A DNA stretch of 64,000 nt from Dehalococcoidia bacterium (lineage in GTDB: Bacteria > Chloroflexota > Dehalococcoidia > Bin125): the NCBI GenBank assembly GCA_022825855.1, contig JAJDWB010000019.1, forward strand, positions 310,001 through 374,000, read 5' to 3'. Positions 51,138-56,768 of the stretch are shown here, in pieces (positions within the stretch are counted from its first letter, which is position 1; every line of letters begins with the position of its first letter). The position numbers and the translations under genes were made by a program. The notes beneath the pieces were generated by a model. It was not told the origin of the DNA, searched no databases, and saw only the letters and a list, made by a program, of their open reading frames with translations.

Positions 51138-51251
51138 TGCTGAGGCGGGCGGTGTTGCCGTGGCGGAGATGGTTGCTCTGGGCCCCGCGTCGGGGCGCGG
51201 GGCATCGGAGGGGGAGGGAGCGGGCCCCCGAATGAATCGGGGGCTGGGAGG
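51138..51251. repeat. Palindrome-rich intergenic repeat, copy A
   Basis: About 114 bases that align over their whole length with 54358-54472; by eye roughly five in six bases match. The unit has a conserved left part (TGCTGAGGCGG..GGTGTTGCCGTGGCGG), then one hairpin (51182-51189 with 51196-51203, 8 bp) and a second (51224-51231 with 51237-51244, 8 bp). It lies between the AIM24 and alpha/beta hydrolase genes, the same orientation as copy B. Confidence 0.75.
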
Positions 51252-51267
51252 GCTGAGGGTGAGCGGG

Positions 51268-52131
51268 TCATTGGGCGTGGTCGCGGAGGAACTGGCGAAT
51301 GGCGTCCAGGGTGGCGGGCAGCTTCTCGGGAGAGCGCGCGTCGACATCGAGGCAACGGGCGTTGGGGGCTTCGTTGCAGATGCGGTGTCCGATGCCGGTC
51401 GGATGGAAGGGGTCGGCGCCGGGGATGACCAGCATCGGCGAGTAGGTGCGCTGGACGGCGACCTCGTTGACCGCAAAGTAGGGCTCGACCGGCGGCCACA
51501 TGCCGTCGCGGAACTCCACGACGAGGGCGATGTAGGTTTCGCGGCGGAGGGTTCGCAGGGCGTCGGCGAAGAGGGGTTCGTCGTGGATGCGCTGGGCGAA
51601 GGGTCCGGCCTCGTTGTTCTGCATAAAGATCGGATCGCGCTGGGCGGCCTCGATCACGGCTTCGAGGCCCTCGGCGCGGCAGAGGCGGATGGTGGGGTTG
51701 AACATGTCGTAGAAGGTCTCGGGCGAGTTGGTCTCGTCGAGTCCGACGGGGTCCTGCATGACGATGCCGGCGATGCGGGCGGGGGCCTGGTCGGCGACGC
51801 GGAGGGCGTAGGCGCAGCCGATGCAGCCGCCCATGACGTGCGCGCGGGGGATGTCGAGGTCGTTGAGCACGGCGAGCTGGTCGAGCATGGCCTTGCCGTA
51901 GCTGAAGGGCTCGAGCGCGGTCTTGCTCTGTCCGCAGTGGCGCTGGTCCATGCCGATCACGGTGAACTCGTCGGAGAAGGCGTCGATGGGGTTGATGATC
52001 GAGCGCCGCCAGAAGCCGATCTGAGAGTTGACGCCGCCGGGGGCGAAGAGCAGGAGCGGGGTGCCGCCGTTGTTCTCGCCGAACACCTCGTAGTGGATGG
52101 TGGTCCCGTCGGGTCGCATGACTTCGGCCAT
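51268..52131 (-). CDS. Alpha/beta hydrolase with Cys at nucleophile position
   Basis: A 287-residue alpha/beta-hydrolase-fold protein. The oxyanion region is LLLFAPGGVNS, then 'VIGMDQRHCGQS'. The nucleophile elbow reads GGCIG, with Cys in place of the usual Ser, as in dienelactone hydrolases. A candidate acid lies in PGADPFHP and a His near 'TGIGHRI'. Substrate unknown. Downstream of the heptamer tandem repeat and the TerL gene on the same strand. Confidence 0.85.
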   Translation of the reverse strand: MAEVMRPDGTTIHYEVFGENNGGTPLLLFAPGGVNSQIGFWRRSIINPIDAFSDEFTVIGMDQRHCGQSKTALEPFSYGKAMLDQLAVLNDLDIPRAHVMGGCIGCAYALRVADQAPARIAGIVMQDPVGLDETNSPETFYDMFNPTIRLCRAEGLEAVIEAAQRDPIFMQNNEAGPFAQRIHDEPLFADALRTLRRETYIALVVEFRDGMWPPVEPYFAVNEVAVQRTYSPMLVIPGADPFHPTGIGHRICNEAPNARCLDVDARSPEKLPATLDAIRQFLRDHAQ

Positions 52132-52150
52132 AGCGGCGTTCCTCTCTGCT

Positions 52151-52206
52151 CTCAGCTCTCAGCTCTCAGGTCTCAGCTCTCAGGTCTCAGCTCTCAGCTC
52201 ACGGCT
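52151..52206. repeat. 7-bp tandem repeat (CTCAGCT/CTCAGGT)
   Basis: Seven contiguous heptamers (52151-52199), five reading CTCAGCT and two CTCAGGT, followed by a degenerate eighth (CACGGCT). A degenerate copy also precedes them. The array fills the 86-base gap between the TerL gene and the alpha/beta hydrolase gene on the minus strand. Confidence 0.85.
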
Positions 52207-52217
52207 CAACTCGACGC

Positions 52218-53948
52218 TTAACGGGGGTCAGTGTAGTCGTCGTCCGGATAGATGATCTCGTACGCGTCGCGACCGTGCATGCGGATGATCCAGGGCCTGT
52301 CGCGGCTGGGGGCGACGGGAATGCCCCTGAAGGTTGGAGGACCGGCGCGGGTCGTATAGCTGGGCGGCACTGAGGGGCGGCCCAGAAGAGGCACGCCGCC
52401 GCTGCGCGGCCGGCGCGAGCGGCGGGCCCGGCCGCCCCGTCCGCGTCGAGGGGAGAGGTTGGCGAGTTCGTGCAGGTAGCGGTCGGCGTCGAGGAGGTCG
52501 TCGTTCTTGCGGTGGGGCTCAGGGTTGTGATCGTGGCGTTGGCTCCAGCGATAGTCGCGCATGCGCAGTGGGAACTGGGTGAGTGAGGGGATGTAGAAGG
52601 AGCGCGGGTTTTGGGGATCGAGTAGTTGCTGAACGAGGGCGATGCCGACGTGGACGGAGCCGGGTCCGCCCTGGCTGGGGCGGATTGGCATTCCACTGCG
52701 GGCGAGGTGGGAGATCCAGGCGGACTGGGAGCGGTCGGCGCACCAGGTGATGGGTCCGAACTGGCGGCGGCAGCGCTGCATCCACTGTTCGAGCCGGCGG
52801 GTGACGCCGGTGCCGCGCTGCTCGAACTCGGCGAGGCGGATGAGGGTGGGTTGATGCGAGTCGTGCGGATCGTCCGGGTCGTGCGGGTCATGGTTCGAGG
52901 GGTCGAGGTGGGCCGGACCGGGTCCGCTGAGGTCGATCTCGCCGGTCAGCGGGTCGGGGCGCATGACGCCGTCGGGATCGAGGCGGGAGCCGACGGGGGC
53001 GGCGCGGCGGGGGTCGCCGTCGGGGAAGTGGAGTCCGGCGACGATGCCGGCGGTGAAGTGTCCGGTCTCGGACTCTGCGCCGAAGTCGAGACCGCCGATG
53101 TAGCGGCTGAAGCGTGGCAGAGGACCGTCCCAGCAGTGGATGTTGGGGTCGAAGGCGGGATAGATCTGTCCGAGGAAGGCGTCGAAGCGGCCCTCGACGA
53201 AGCGGTCGACCCAGTCGCCGGGAAGGACGGCGCGCTGGGTGTCGGCGTAGTTGGCCGGGAGGTGGGGGTTGTCCTCGATCCGGGCCTGGATGAACTTGAG
53301 GCGGACGTCGGCTCGCTCGAGGGCGTGCTCGGGAAGTTCGCGCTTGACGAACCAACGCTCGAACCAGCCGGGGTAGGGGTTGGAGGCGGCGATGAACCAG
53401 GGCTGGGGCTGGGCGGGATGACGCAGGCGGGTGACGAGCATCTGGGCGGCTTCGGCCTCGACCTGTCCCGCTTCGTCGATGAGGACGGCGCCGTACTGCT
53501 GGGAGCCGAGTCCGGTCCAGTCGGAGAGGTGCCGGAAGTGGATGGTGGAGGATCGGGACTGATCGGGGGCGGCGATCTCGACGGAGTGAGTGGGGGATTG
53601 GCGTCGCTTGCCGATCAGACCGGGCGGGCAGTAGCGGAAGAAGTCGGCCATGGTGGTGGTGGCGAGGTCGGTGAAGTTGTGCCGGGCGACGAGGATGTTG
53701 TTGCCGGGGAAGAGGAGAGCGGCGTCGATGGCGAGTTCGACGAGGGCTCGGGTCTTGCCGCCGCCCATGGCACCGCCGTAGCCCACGAGCGAGAGACCCG
53801 AGGCCTGTGGGGCATCGGGCAGAGGGGCCGGGTCAACCAAGGCGCGATAGAGTTCGCGCTGGCGATCGGTCGGGAAAAAACGTCGGTGGCGGTGGGCGCG
53901 CCAGAGGCGCCCGCCGAGCCGGAGTGGCCGGGTATTAGGGGTAGTCAT
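52218..53948 (-). CDS. Phage-type terminase large subunit (TerL), orphan
   Basis: A 576-residue DNA-packaging-type ATPase/nuclease. The ATPase has Walker A GAMGGGKT (59-66), Walker B VLIDEA (155-160) with following Glu-rich helix, and ASNPYPGWF (coupling-like region). The RNase-H-like nuclease domain has an Asp in GGLDFG (D288), 'ADRSQSAW' and a C-terminal NDDLLDADRYL. An Asp/His/Pro-rich insertion lies near 350-370 and an Arg-rich tail near 495-515. It looks intact, yet no portal, capsid or tail gene is in the window. Only a small acidic protein (14-base overlap) accompanies it. Confidence 0.88.
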   Translation of the reverse strand: MTTPNTRPLRLGGRLWRAHRHRRFFPTDRQRELYRALVDPAPLPDAPQASGLSLVGYGGAMGGGKTRALVELAIDAALLFPGNNILVARHNFTDLATTTMADFFRYCPPGLIGKRRQSPTHSVEIAAPDQSRSSTIHFRHLSDWTGLGSQQYGAVLIDEAGQVEAEAAQMLVTRLRHPAQPQPWFIAASNPYPGWFERWFVKRELPEHALERADVRLKFIQARIEDNPHLPANYADTQRAVLPGDWVDRFVEGRFDAFLGQIYPAFDPNIHCWDGPLPRFSRYIGGLDFGAESETGHFTAGIVAGLHFPDGDPRRAAPVGSRLDPDGVMRPDPLTGEIDLSGPGPAHLDPSNHDPHDPDDPHDSHQPTLIRLAEFEQRGTGVTRRLEQWMQRCRRQFGPITWCADRSQSAWISHLARSGMPIRPSQGGPGSVHVGIALVQQLLDPQNPRSFYIPSLTQFPLRMRDYRWSQRHDHNPEPHRKNDDLLDADRYLHELANLSPRRGRGGRARRSRRPRSGGVPLLGRPSVPPSYTTRAGPPTFRGIPVAPSRDRPWIIRMHGRDAYEIIYPDDDYTDPR

Positions 53949-54234
53949 CGTCCTCCTCGCTGGATTCGTCTACGGGGTAGAGCCCGCTGTGCTGCTCGGG
54001 CTGCTGTTCGGGTTCCTGTTGGTTGTCACGGGAGAGTCCGAGTTCGCGGAGGGCGTCGCTGGTCTTGTCGAAGAGTCCGACGATGCGGGCGAGGGAGCGG
54101 GTGGCCTGGAACTGGATGTAGGCGGGTCCGTTGGTAGCGAAGTGCTGGAGCCGGCCGACGATGGCATTGGCCTTGAGCTGGAGGGGCGGGTTGTGTCGTG
54201 GGGCGACGACGGCGCCCATGGTTGCTGCAGACAT
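53935..54234 (-). CDS. Small acidic-tailed protein upstream of TerL
   Basis: A 99-residue protein starting at ATG 54234 behind GGAAGGAG. The middle is helical (LKANAIVGRLQHFATNGPAYIQFQ, then 'LARIVGLFDKTSDALRELGL'), and the C-terminus is strongly acidic (DESSEEDDD). The TerL start lies in its last codons, so the two are co-translated. A small-terminase-like partner is the contextual guess; there is no recognisable HTH. Confidence 0.7.
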   Translation of the reverse strand: MSAATMGAVVAPRHNPPLQLKANAIVGRLQHFATNGPAYIQFQATRSLARIVGLFDKTSDALRELGLSRDNQQEPEQQPEQHSGLYPVDESSEEDDDYP

Positions 54235-54317
54235 TGGTGGGTCTCCTTCCGTTGGTGTCCGATGGGGTTGATGGTATGTGAACTGGTGTGCTGAAAGTGT
54301 GGCGGGGTTGTCGGAGT

Positions 54318-54472
54318 GGGTCCCCAAACAAATCGGGGACTGGGAGGGTGAAGTTGTTGCTGAGGCGGAGGGTGTTGCCGTGGCGGGGTTTGGGTGGTCT
54401 GGGCCCCGCGTCAAGCGCGGGGGATCGGAGGGGGGAGGGAGTGGGTCCCCGGATGAATCGGGGACTGGGATG
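54318..54472. repeat. Palindrome-rich intergenic repeat, copy B with extra hairpin
   Basis: Bases 54358-54472 are the counterpart of 51138-51251, in the same orientation, ending in the hairpin GTCCCCG...CGGGGAC. An additional member of the second hairpin (GTCCCC at 54320-54325, GGGGAC at 54335-54340) sits just before it. The region fills most of the 283-base gap between the TerL partner and the first P450 gene; no gene is seen there. Confidence 0.75.
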
Positions 54473-55911: not shown

Positions 55912-56493
55912 ATGTCGCGGAAACCGAGGCTCCGCCAATTCGACTTTGATGCCGAGAAGTTCAAGGAGCTCATCGTTTACGTGGCGGAACGCTGCGCTGA
56001 CGACCCGTCGTTTGGCGCGGTGAAGCTCAACAAAATCCTCTACTACGCCGACTTCGACGCGTATCGGCTGCTTCATCAGCCAATCAGTGGAGCGACCTAC
56101 CGGAAGCTCTCCGAAGGTCCTGCCCCAAAGGAGTTGGTCAGTTCGAGAGACGAGTTGATTGAGCAAGGCCGGATCGAGCTAGAAGAGCGTCCCTACTTCA
56201 ATCGAACCCAAAAGCGTCTCGTCCTCACCCAGGGAGAGGCGGCAAATCCCGAGATCTTCTCGGTCGATGAGCGACAGGTAGTCGATCAGGTAATCCAGTT
56301 CTTCTGGGGCAAGTCCGCGCGTGAAGTCTCCGACTACTCGCATCGGGAGCCGGGTTGGCTTGCCGCGGGTGATCGCGAGCAGATCCCCTACGAGACCGCG
56401 GGCTTGAGTCCAGAACCTATCGATCAGGAGGCAGAGGAGTACGCGCTGAGGCTCGCGCAGGAGTACATCGCCAAGAAGAGGCATGCGCGATAG
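55912..56493 (+). CDS. Panacea-domain antitoxin (SocA/DUF4065-like)
   Basis: A 193-residue protein with the Panacea pattern: 'FGAVKLNKILYYADF', 'PISGATYRKLSEGPAPKEL' and then 'F...S.Y.H....W' (VSDYSHREPGW). Panacea domains are antitoxins that neutralise many unrelated toxins. The ATG follows GGGAGGC. The 90-residue gene two bases downstream is the matching toxin candidate. Confidence 0.88.
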   Translation: MSRKPRLRQFDFDAEKFKELIVYVAERCADDPSFGAVKLNKILYYADFDAYRLLHQPISGATYRKLSEGPAPKELVSSRDELIEQGRIELEERPYFNRTQKRLVLTQGEAANPEIFSVDERQVVDQVIQFFWGKSAREVSDYSHREPGWLAAGDREQIPYETAGLSPEPIDQEAEEYALRLAQEYIAKKRHAR

Positions 56494-56495
56494 CG

Positions 56496-56768
56496 ATGGC
56501 ATATGGGCAAGGGTGGGGAGTAGAGATATCCAATGGGTTCCAGCAACAGTTGGACGCCTTGGCGGAGAATGAACCGCACTTGGAGGAACTGGTAGAAGGG
56601 CTGATCTTCACTGCGTTTGCCGGGCCTGATGCGATCTGGCCTCAGTTACACATGGTCGGAAATCTCTGGTGTACCAGGGTCCTCGCCCCACTGCCGTACC
56701 TGATCTTCTTTGAAGTGAACGAGACCGAACGATTCATCGAGCTGGTGATCATCACAGAGACGCCATAG
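56496..56768 (+). CDS. RelE/ParE-like toxin of the Panacea pair
   Basis: A 90-residue protein. 'LEELVEGLIFTAFAGPDAIWPQLHMVGNLWCTRVL.PLPYLIFFEVNETERFIELVII' gives the alpha-helices then antiparallel strands of the RelE/ParE fold, ending in a hydrophobic strand. The pairing with a Panacea antitoxin, two bases upstream, supports a toxin role. The target, ribosome or gyrase, cannot be told. No obvious catalytic residues typical of strong RelE enzymes were identified. Confidence 0.72.
   Translation: MAYGQGWGVEISNGFQQQLDALAENEPHLEELVEGLIFTAFAGPDAIWPQLHMVGNLWCTRVLAPLPYLIFFEVNETERFIELVIITETP

Follow-up and report, generated by a model that had tools for sequence, protein, structure and literature searches.

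Dispersed terminase cassettes and a capsid-lysis operon with a common LexA-type operator: a possible GTA-like packaging system in a Chloroflexota genus

The window analysed here is a stretch of 64,000 nucleotides from a Dehalococcoidia bacterium (contig JAJDWB010000019.1, positions 310,001 to 374,000 of the forward strand). Between an alpha/beta hydrolase and a P450 gene it carries a cassette of two genes, a terminase large subunit (TerL) and a small acidic TerS-like partner, whose ORF overlaps the TerL start by ~11 bp. Palindromic repeats and a predicted LexA-type operator accompany the cassette (Table 1). The partner and the hydrolase were found as described in a first-pass annotation of this DNA. 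As also stated there, no portal, capsid or tail genes were seen near the cassette; nor did the terminase have integrase, replication or structural genes as neighbours, and the TerL loci examined were flanked by host genes on both sides. An ordinary prophage around the window cassette, which the annotation had named as the case against its own reading, was looked for and rejected, as the flanks hold host genes.

Table 1 Features of the terminase cassette and its surroundings (positions in the window).
Feature	Position	Strand	Remark
Dispersed palindromic repeat, first bracketing copy	51138..51251	+	Same gap holds a TerS gene and a TerL stub in G002
Alpha/beta hydrolase	51268..52131	-	Resident neighbour, outside the cassette
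14-bp tandem repeat	52142..52214		Between TerL and hydrolase
Terminase large subunit (TerL)	52218..53948	-	ATPase and nuclease motifs intact
Small acidic partner, putative HTH-less TerS-like protein, 99 aa	53935..54234	-	Overlaps TerL start
Predicted LexA/SOS-type operator GCACACCAGTTC	54280..54291	-	Differs from GAACNNNNGTTC at one position; upstream of TerS
Dispersed palindromic repeat, partial copy	54313..54348	+	
Dispersed palindromic repeat, second bracketing copy	54358..54472	+	Upstream of TerS
P450 gene	54500..55846	+	Resident neighbour, flanks the occupied gap opposite the hydrolase

The TerL of the window matched PHROG terminase profiles (phrog_2, E=4e-26) and both Pfam Terminase_3 and Terminase_6N; a match to TIGR01547 scored below the curated cut-off of that model. 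The Walker A (GGAMGGGKT), Walker B (LIDEAG) and SNP motifs, and the nuclease acidic residues D288, D405 and D483-D489, were invariant or nearly so in 29–30 of the 30 TerL homologues. Motifs and profile matches agree with the earlier description of TerL as apparently complete. Across the 30 copies 199 columns hardly varied, and all motor and nuclease motifs fall among them. The gene is neither decayed nor absent from all relatives, the other case that had been named against the annotation's reading: homologues were found in 14 of the 15 genomes of the genus, with 1–9 matches per genome when fragments are counted. Among five further genomes of the family one had TerL, and beyond the family, 41 other genomes of the class gave one weak match (G036). 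A TerL pattern scan over 84,980 species, with one genome per species, gave matches only in Chloroflexota and Dehalococcoidia MAGs, whose hosts, as read from the isolate names, are probably sponges. The relatives identified by name are MAGs, and their genes were called with a simple custom script.

The TerL copies fall into about eight conserved chromosomal sites, and some are N-terminal stubs. Both TerL and the capsid gene described below are under purifying selection (dN/dS mostly 0.03–0.3 and 0.04–0.29, respectively). Two TerL proteins of this genome, on contigs C13 and C14 (L030:32-1555 and L031:32-1567), were 99% identical. Their genes differed at 98 bases, 85 of them at third codon positions, with a dN/dS of 0.03, much lower than between other copies, and the homology ended at the stop codon; as both lie at contig ends, assembly effects are possible. 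Several TerL copies (L036:9778-11268 and L038:4546-6015, also L034, L035 and L042) had in-frame insertions in one nuclease-domain loop, resembling translated palindromic repeats. The nearest viral TerL genes shared 32–40% identity and were found in viral contigs with ordinary phage gene order. Scanning the IMG/VR contigs with the window TerL alone gave no match.

We regard the small partner as a putative TerS-like protein without an HTH, based on a short motif (A..LARi.GLyd, together with an acidic tail), the gene position and the overlap with TerL. At the sequence level it had no HTH or TerS family match in PHROG, Pfam and the family libraries, and there is no room for an HTH before the conserved motif. 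In the sister genus the partner also overlaps its TerL, and it matched the profile of the partner family at 91.7% probability. A viral TerS recognised by PHROG (E=3e-30) aligned weakly at the same motif (6.5%). Against PDB sequences, neither TerS nor the capsid protein had a convincing relative. A TerS profile search recovered 1–16 copies per genome in 14 of the 15 genomes and none in one draft; the weakest matches could be aided by the acidic tails, and those inspected show the motif. Nearly all copies are open frames (one has a stop), often without TerL. One further copy in this genome (C16:189575) was located through its operator.

The first-pass annotation had delimited the block by two same-orientation repeats of ~115 bp and counted the hydrolase as part of it. 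The repeats are indeed direct copies, with 86% identity, and the genome search proposed in the annotation found copies at 9–11 places. With ≤2 mismatches the repeat motif occurred nine times in the genome and not once in a reversed control, and the palindrome GGKYCCCCGNATGAATCGGGGRC was present three times in the window versus 0.01 expected. Because the copies are dispersed and the hydrolase is resident, we rejected the bracketing repeats as boundaries of a unit that could be excised. That the repeat forms the constant left end of a mobile unit was only partly supported, since it precedes only 20 of the 89 TerS genes.

By DNA search, the AIM24-hydrolase-P450 neighbourhood is conserved among the 15 genomes of the genus. 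In nearly all relatives the hydrolase adjoins the same P450 gene without a cassette, the gap being ~100–140 bp in G011, G004, G013, G009, G007, G003, G008 and others. Only this genome and G014 have TerS-TerL in this gap. That of G006 holds a different TerS-like gene in the opposite orientation, and in G002 a TerS gene and a TerL stub lie in the neighbouring AIM24-hydrolase gap, at the position of the window's first repeat copy, which is possibly a relic and not an end of the window cassette. The intergenic DNA of the hydrolase-P450 gap is too diverged to define an empty-site junction at base level. The annotation had asked whether the pair is conserved at the same place without phage genes: it recurs without adjacent phage genes, but the hydrolase-P450 site is occupied by it in two genomes only, the other conserved sites lying elsewhere. 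Downstream, a possible toxin-antitoxin pair, made up of a gene with a SocA/Panacea domain and one of 90 aa, is found between two P450 genes (55912-56768, forward strand); in G014 (L033) the two P450 genes are adjacent.

In Gram-positive bacteria, the palindrome GAAC-N4-GTTC serves as the operator of LexA (PMC3323433, PMC4234289), and our consensus was taken from these bacteria. With ≤1 mismatch and ≤160 bp upstream, the palindrome was found at 80 of the 89 TerS genes, versus 43 of 678 control genes, although the 80 boxes are not independent events because the TerS genes are related to each other. Exact palindromes preceded 21 of 89 TerS genes and 2 of 678 controls. An operator model trained without the tested genome still recovered 65 of the 89. 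In 15 of 15 genomes, sites of the same matrix were present shortly before the scaffold gene, at positions of about -584 to -670 relative to the capsid start, and the TerS of the sister genus is also preceded by the palindrome. The operator is carried by TerS subtypes sharing almost no sequence and by the unrelated capsid operon. In this genome it also precedes an imuB-dnaE2-type operon (Y-family polymerase and DNA polymerase III alpha subunit), which is a classic type of SOS operon. Motifs of recA, lexA and uvr were not found in 864 kb of this genome's DNA. The shared operator predicts LexA control of TerS, TerL and the capsid operon. A LexA-type box was also seen 13 bp upstream of a gene for an HTH protein of 229–244 aa (G000:C10:20139-20873, L236:139-873), which has weak similarity to the phage small terminase PF10668.

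Every genome of the genus has one conserved head and lysis operon. It lies near one TerL site, which was recognised by its neighbouring genes in 12 genomes. The gene order of the operon is conserved: a scaffold-like gene is followed by the major capsid gene, two small genes of unknown function, genes for holin-like membrane proteins and one for an endolysin-type amidase. The 293-aa product is the predicted major capsid protein. The capsid profile singled out the annotated capsids among the structural and packaging proteins of the phages HTVC026P (91.6%) and MEP301 (82.9%), and weak family matches also support the assignment. The gene upstream of it holds the scaffold position, and in HTVC026P, too, the scaffold gene is directly before the capsid gene. 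The capsid gene has a single copy in each of the 15 genomes of the genus and was absent from the 85 other genomes of the class; a viral-contig scan with the capsid alignment gave no confirmed match. At one site the operon lies 7–11 kb from TerL, with several CoA-transferase genes between. At least three genes of the CaiB/BaiF type were found between TerL and the operon in many genomes (L032, L036, L038, L055, L058 and other capsid-operon loci).

A portal of the system was not found by the A3, SPP1_portal, Phage_portal, P22_portal and Head-tail_con profiles, of which A3 and Head-tail_con had no positive control, and no tail genes were seen near the capsid operon. The lack of a portal is the chief weakness of the packaging reading, which supposes a portal so divergent that it escaped these profiles; otherwise the system does something else. 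An HK97-type portal was present in one genome of the genus only (L154, G003:C209), where it probably belongs to an ordinary prophage or to contamination.

Our best reading, held with moderate confidence, is a dispersed, DNA-damage-controlled, GTA-like packaging system, built from domesticated, phage-derived genes, in a probably sponge-associated Chloroflexota genus. It keeps the earlier suggestion of a GTA-like remnant or a domesticated packaging motor. Most likely, DNA damage would derepress the TerS/TerL cassettes and the capsid operon together through LexA, as the parts share the GAAC-N4-GTTC operator. The single-copy operon would supply scaffold-like protein, major capsid, holin-like proteins and amidase to the scattered TerS(-TerL) cassettes. 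TerL and TerS would fill the capsids with host DNA, with no fixed pac site because TerS is HTH-less, and the particles would leave the cell through the action of the lysis genes, as in gene transfer agents. We favour packaging of host DNA that is induced by damage and independent of sequence because the translocation, shell and release parts are conserved, one damage-type operator is common to them and TerS lacks an HTH; particle formation and DNA transfer would follow. Besides the portal and tail results, three points count against this reading: an operator of the damage type would fit plain prophages as well, TerL and the capsid operon are separated by CoA-transferase genes, and TerS is named by no family library.

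The comparison with known GTAs (RcGTA, BaGTA, Dd1, VSH-1, VTA) shows several common traits. Phage-derived terminase, capsid and release genes occur without adjacent phage replication or integration genes, are retained vertically in the lineage under purifying selection and lie at several loci, and TerS appears to have no sequence-specific DNA-binding domain. An HTH-less TerS was reported for all known GTAs (PMC11841831), and GTA genes can be spread over several loci (PMC6854486). To these is added a trait of LexA/SOS regulons, the operator at the promoters. Unlike in GTAs, both TerS and TerL occur in several copies at many scattered sites, nearly every TerS copy has a LexA-type operator, and the phage lineage and phylum are unrelated. 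We favour a system that works like a GTA and do not claim that it is one, because five profiles found no portal, no tail gene was seen near the operon, and particles and DNA transfer are predictions. A search of open-access papers found no GTA-like system described from sponge-associated Chloroflexota. A regulon of single-gene TerS cassettes and one capsid operon would widen the definition of GTAs, would show that searches for compact clusters can miss such systems, and would be a possible mechanism for gene exchange among uncultured symbionts.

The TerS genes evolve faster than TerL, with a dN/dS of 0.2–0.4 in many pairs and of 0.82 when the window copy is compared with the corresponding copy of G014. 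For 49 of 80 copies the nearest relative was in the same genome, versus 9 expected and a maximum of 24 in 2000 shuffles. Duplicated units of ~440–800 bp had sharp edges, and unrelated TerS subtypes can occur at the same site in different species, the site grouping being automatic and its largest group (16 members) merging several places. The best reading is that TerS cassettes spread or are homogenised within genomes, which may reflect selfish spread or gene conversion among copies. Together with solo TerS copies outnumbering TerL, and with occupied versus empty sites at the hydrolase-P450 locus, these features would suit selfish packaging parasites, which steer the resident capsids toward their own neighbourhood and so spread between cells. 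The host would then retain the capsid operon for some purpose of its own. We consider such parasites unlikely. Self-targeting by a TerS without an HTH would need another signal, many TerS cassettes keep conserved sites across species, and ordinary gene conversion could explain the homogenisation within genomes.

Domestication for a use other than DNA transfer, as a shell, self-lysis or nuclease response that is induced by damage and makes no DNA-filled particles, would agree with the portal result and with a capsid operon that has lysis genes and a damage-type operator. However, nearly all TerL copies keep the translocating ATPase and nuclease motifs, which are of little use without a portal, and we judge this reading quite improbable. 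In a further reading, the dispersed TerS genes could themselves be the packaging start points, as pac lies inside the TerS gene in some phages. Each cassette would then move its own neighbourhood and be copied from site to site. This is a doubtful proposal; if true, packaging would be induced by damage and seeded at many loci, and capsid transfer would have multiple origins.

The small TerS variants, with their many copies, rapidly changing tails and damage-type operator, could also serve as damage-induced packaging or assembly decoys that interfere with infecting phages, which is very unlikely for a capsid operon that is single-copy, strongly conserved and has a complete lysis set. Scattered remnants of ordinary prophages that happen to persist, as the viral TerL relatives with phage neighbours and the TerL stubs could suggest, are hardly credible given intact TerL with low dN/dS, the conserved single-copy capsid locus, the absence of phage replication and integration genes beside the cassettes, an operator common to divergent parts and no close viral relative in IMG/VR.

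Distant TerL or capsid homologues of the system were found in Pelagibacter phage HTVC026P, Methylophilales phage MEP301, Paenibacillus phage API480 and IMG/VR contigs. These podovirus-like and other tailed phages differ in having complete genomes with a portal beside TerL, and the TerS recognised in the IMG/VR contigs has an HTH-type profile match. PICI/SaPI satellites redirect packaging with their own TerS and, like the system described here, consist of small cassettes with an own terminase subunit and a capsid supplier in the same cell. They differ from our cassettes, which have no integrase, replication or regulatory genes and would draw their capsids from a conserved operon of the host instead of from a helper phage. 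The repeats recall REP elements with RAYT transposases, where dispersed intergenic palindromes are also found, some beside a coding cassette; here the coding part is TerS/TerL and not a Y1 transposase, and most TerS genes are not preceded by the palindrome. In the nearest relative, the palindromic repeat forms a tandem array at a contig end, where it recurs about every 133 bp (L096, G014:C31:1-730).
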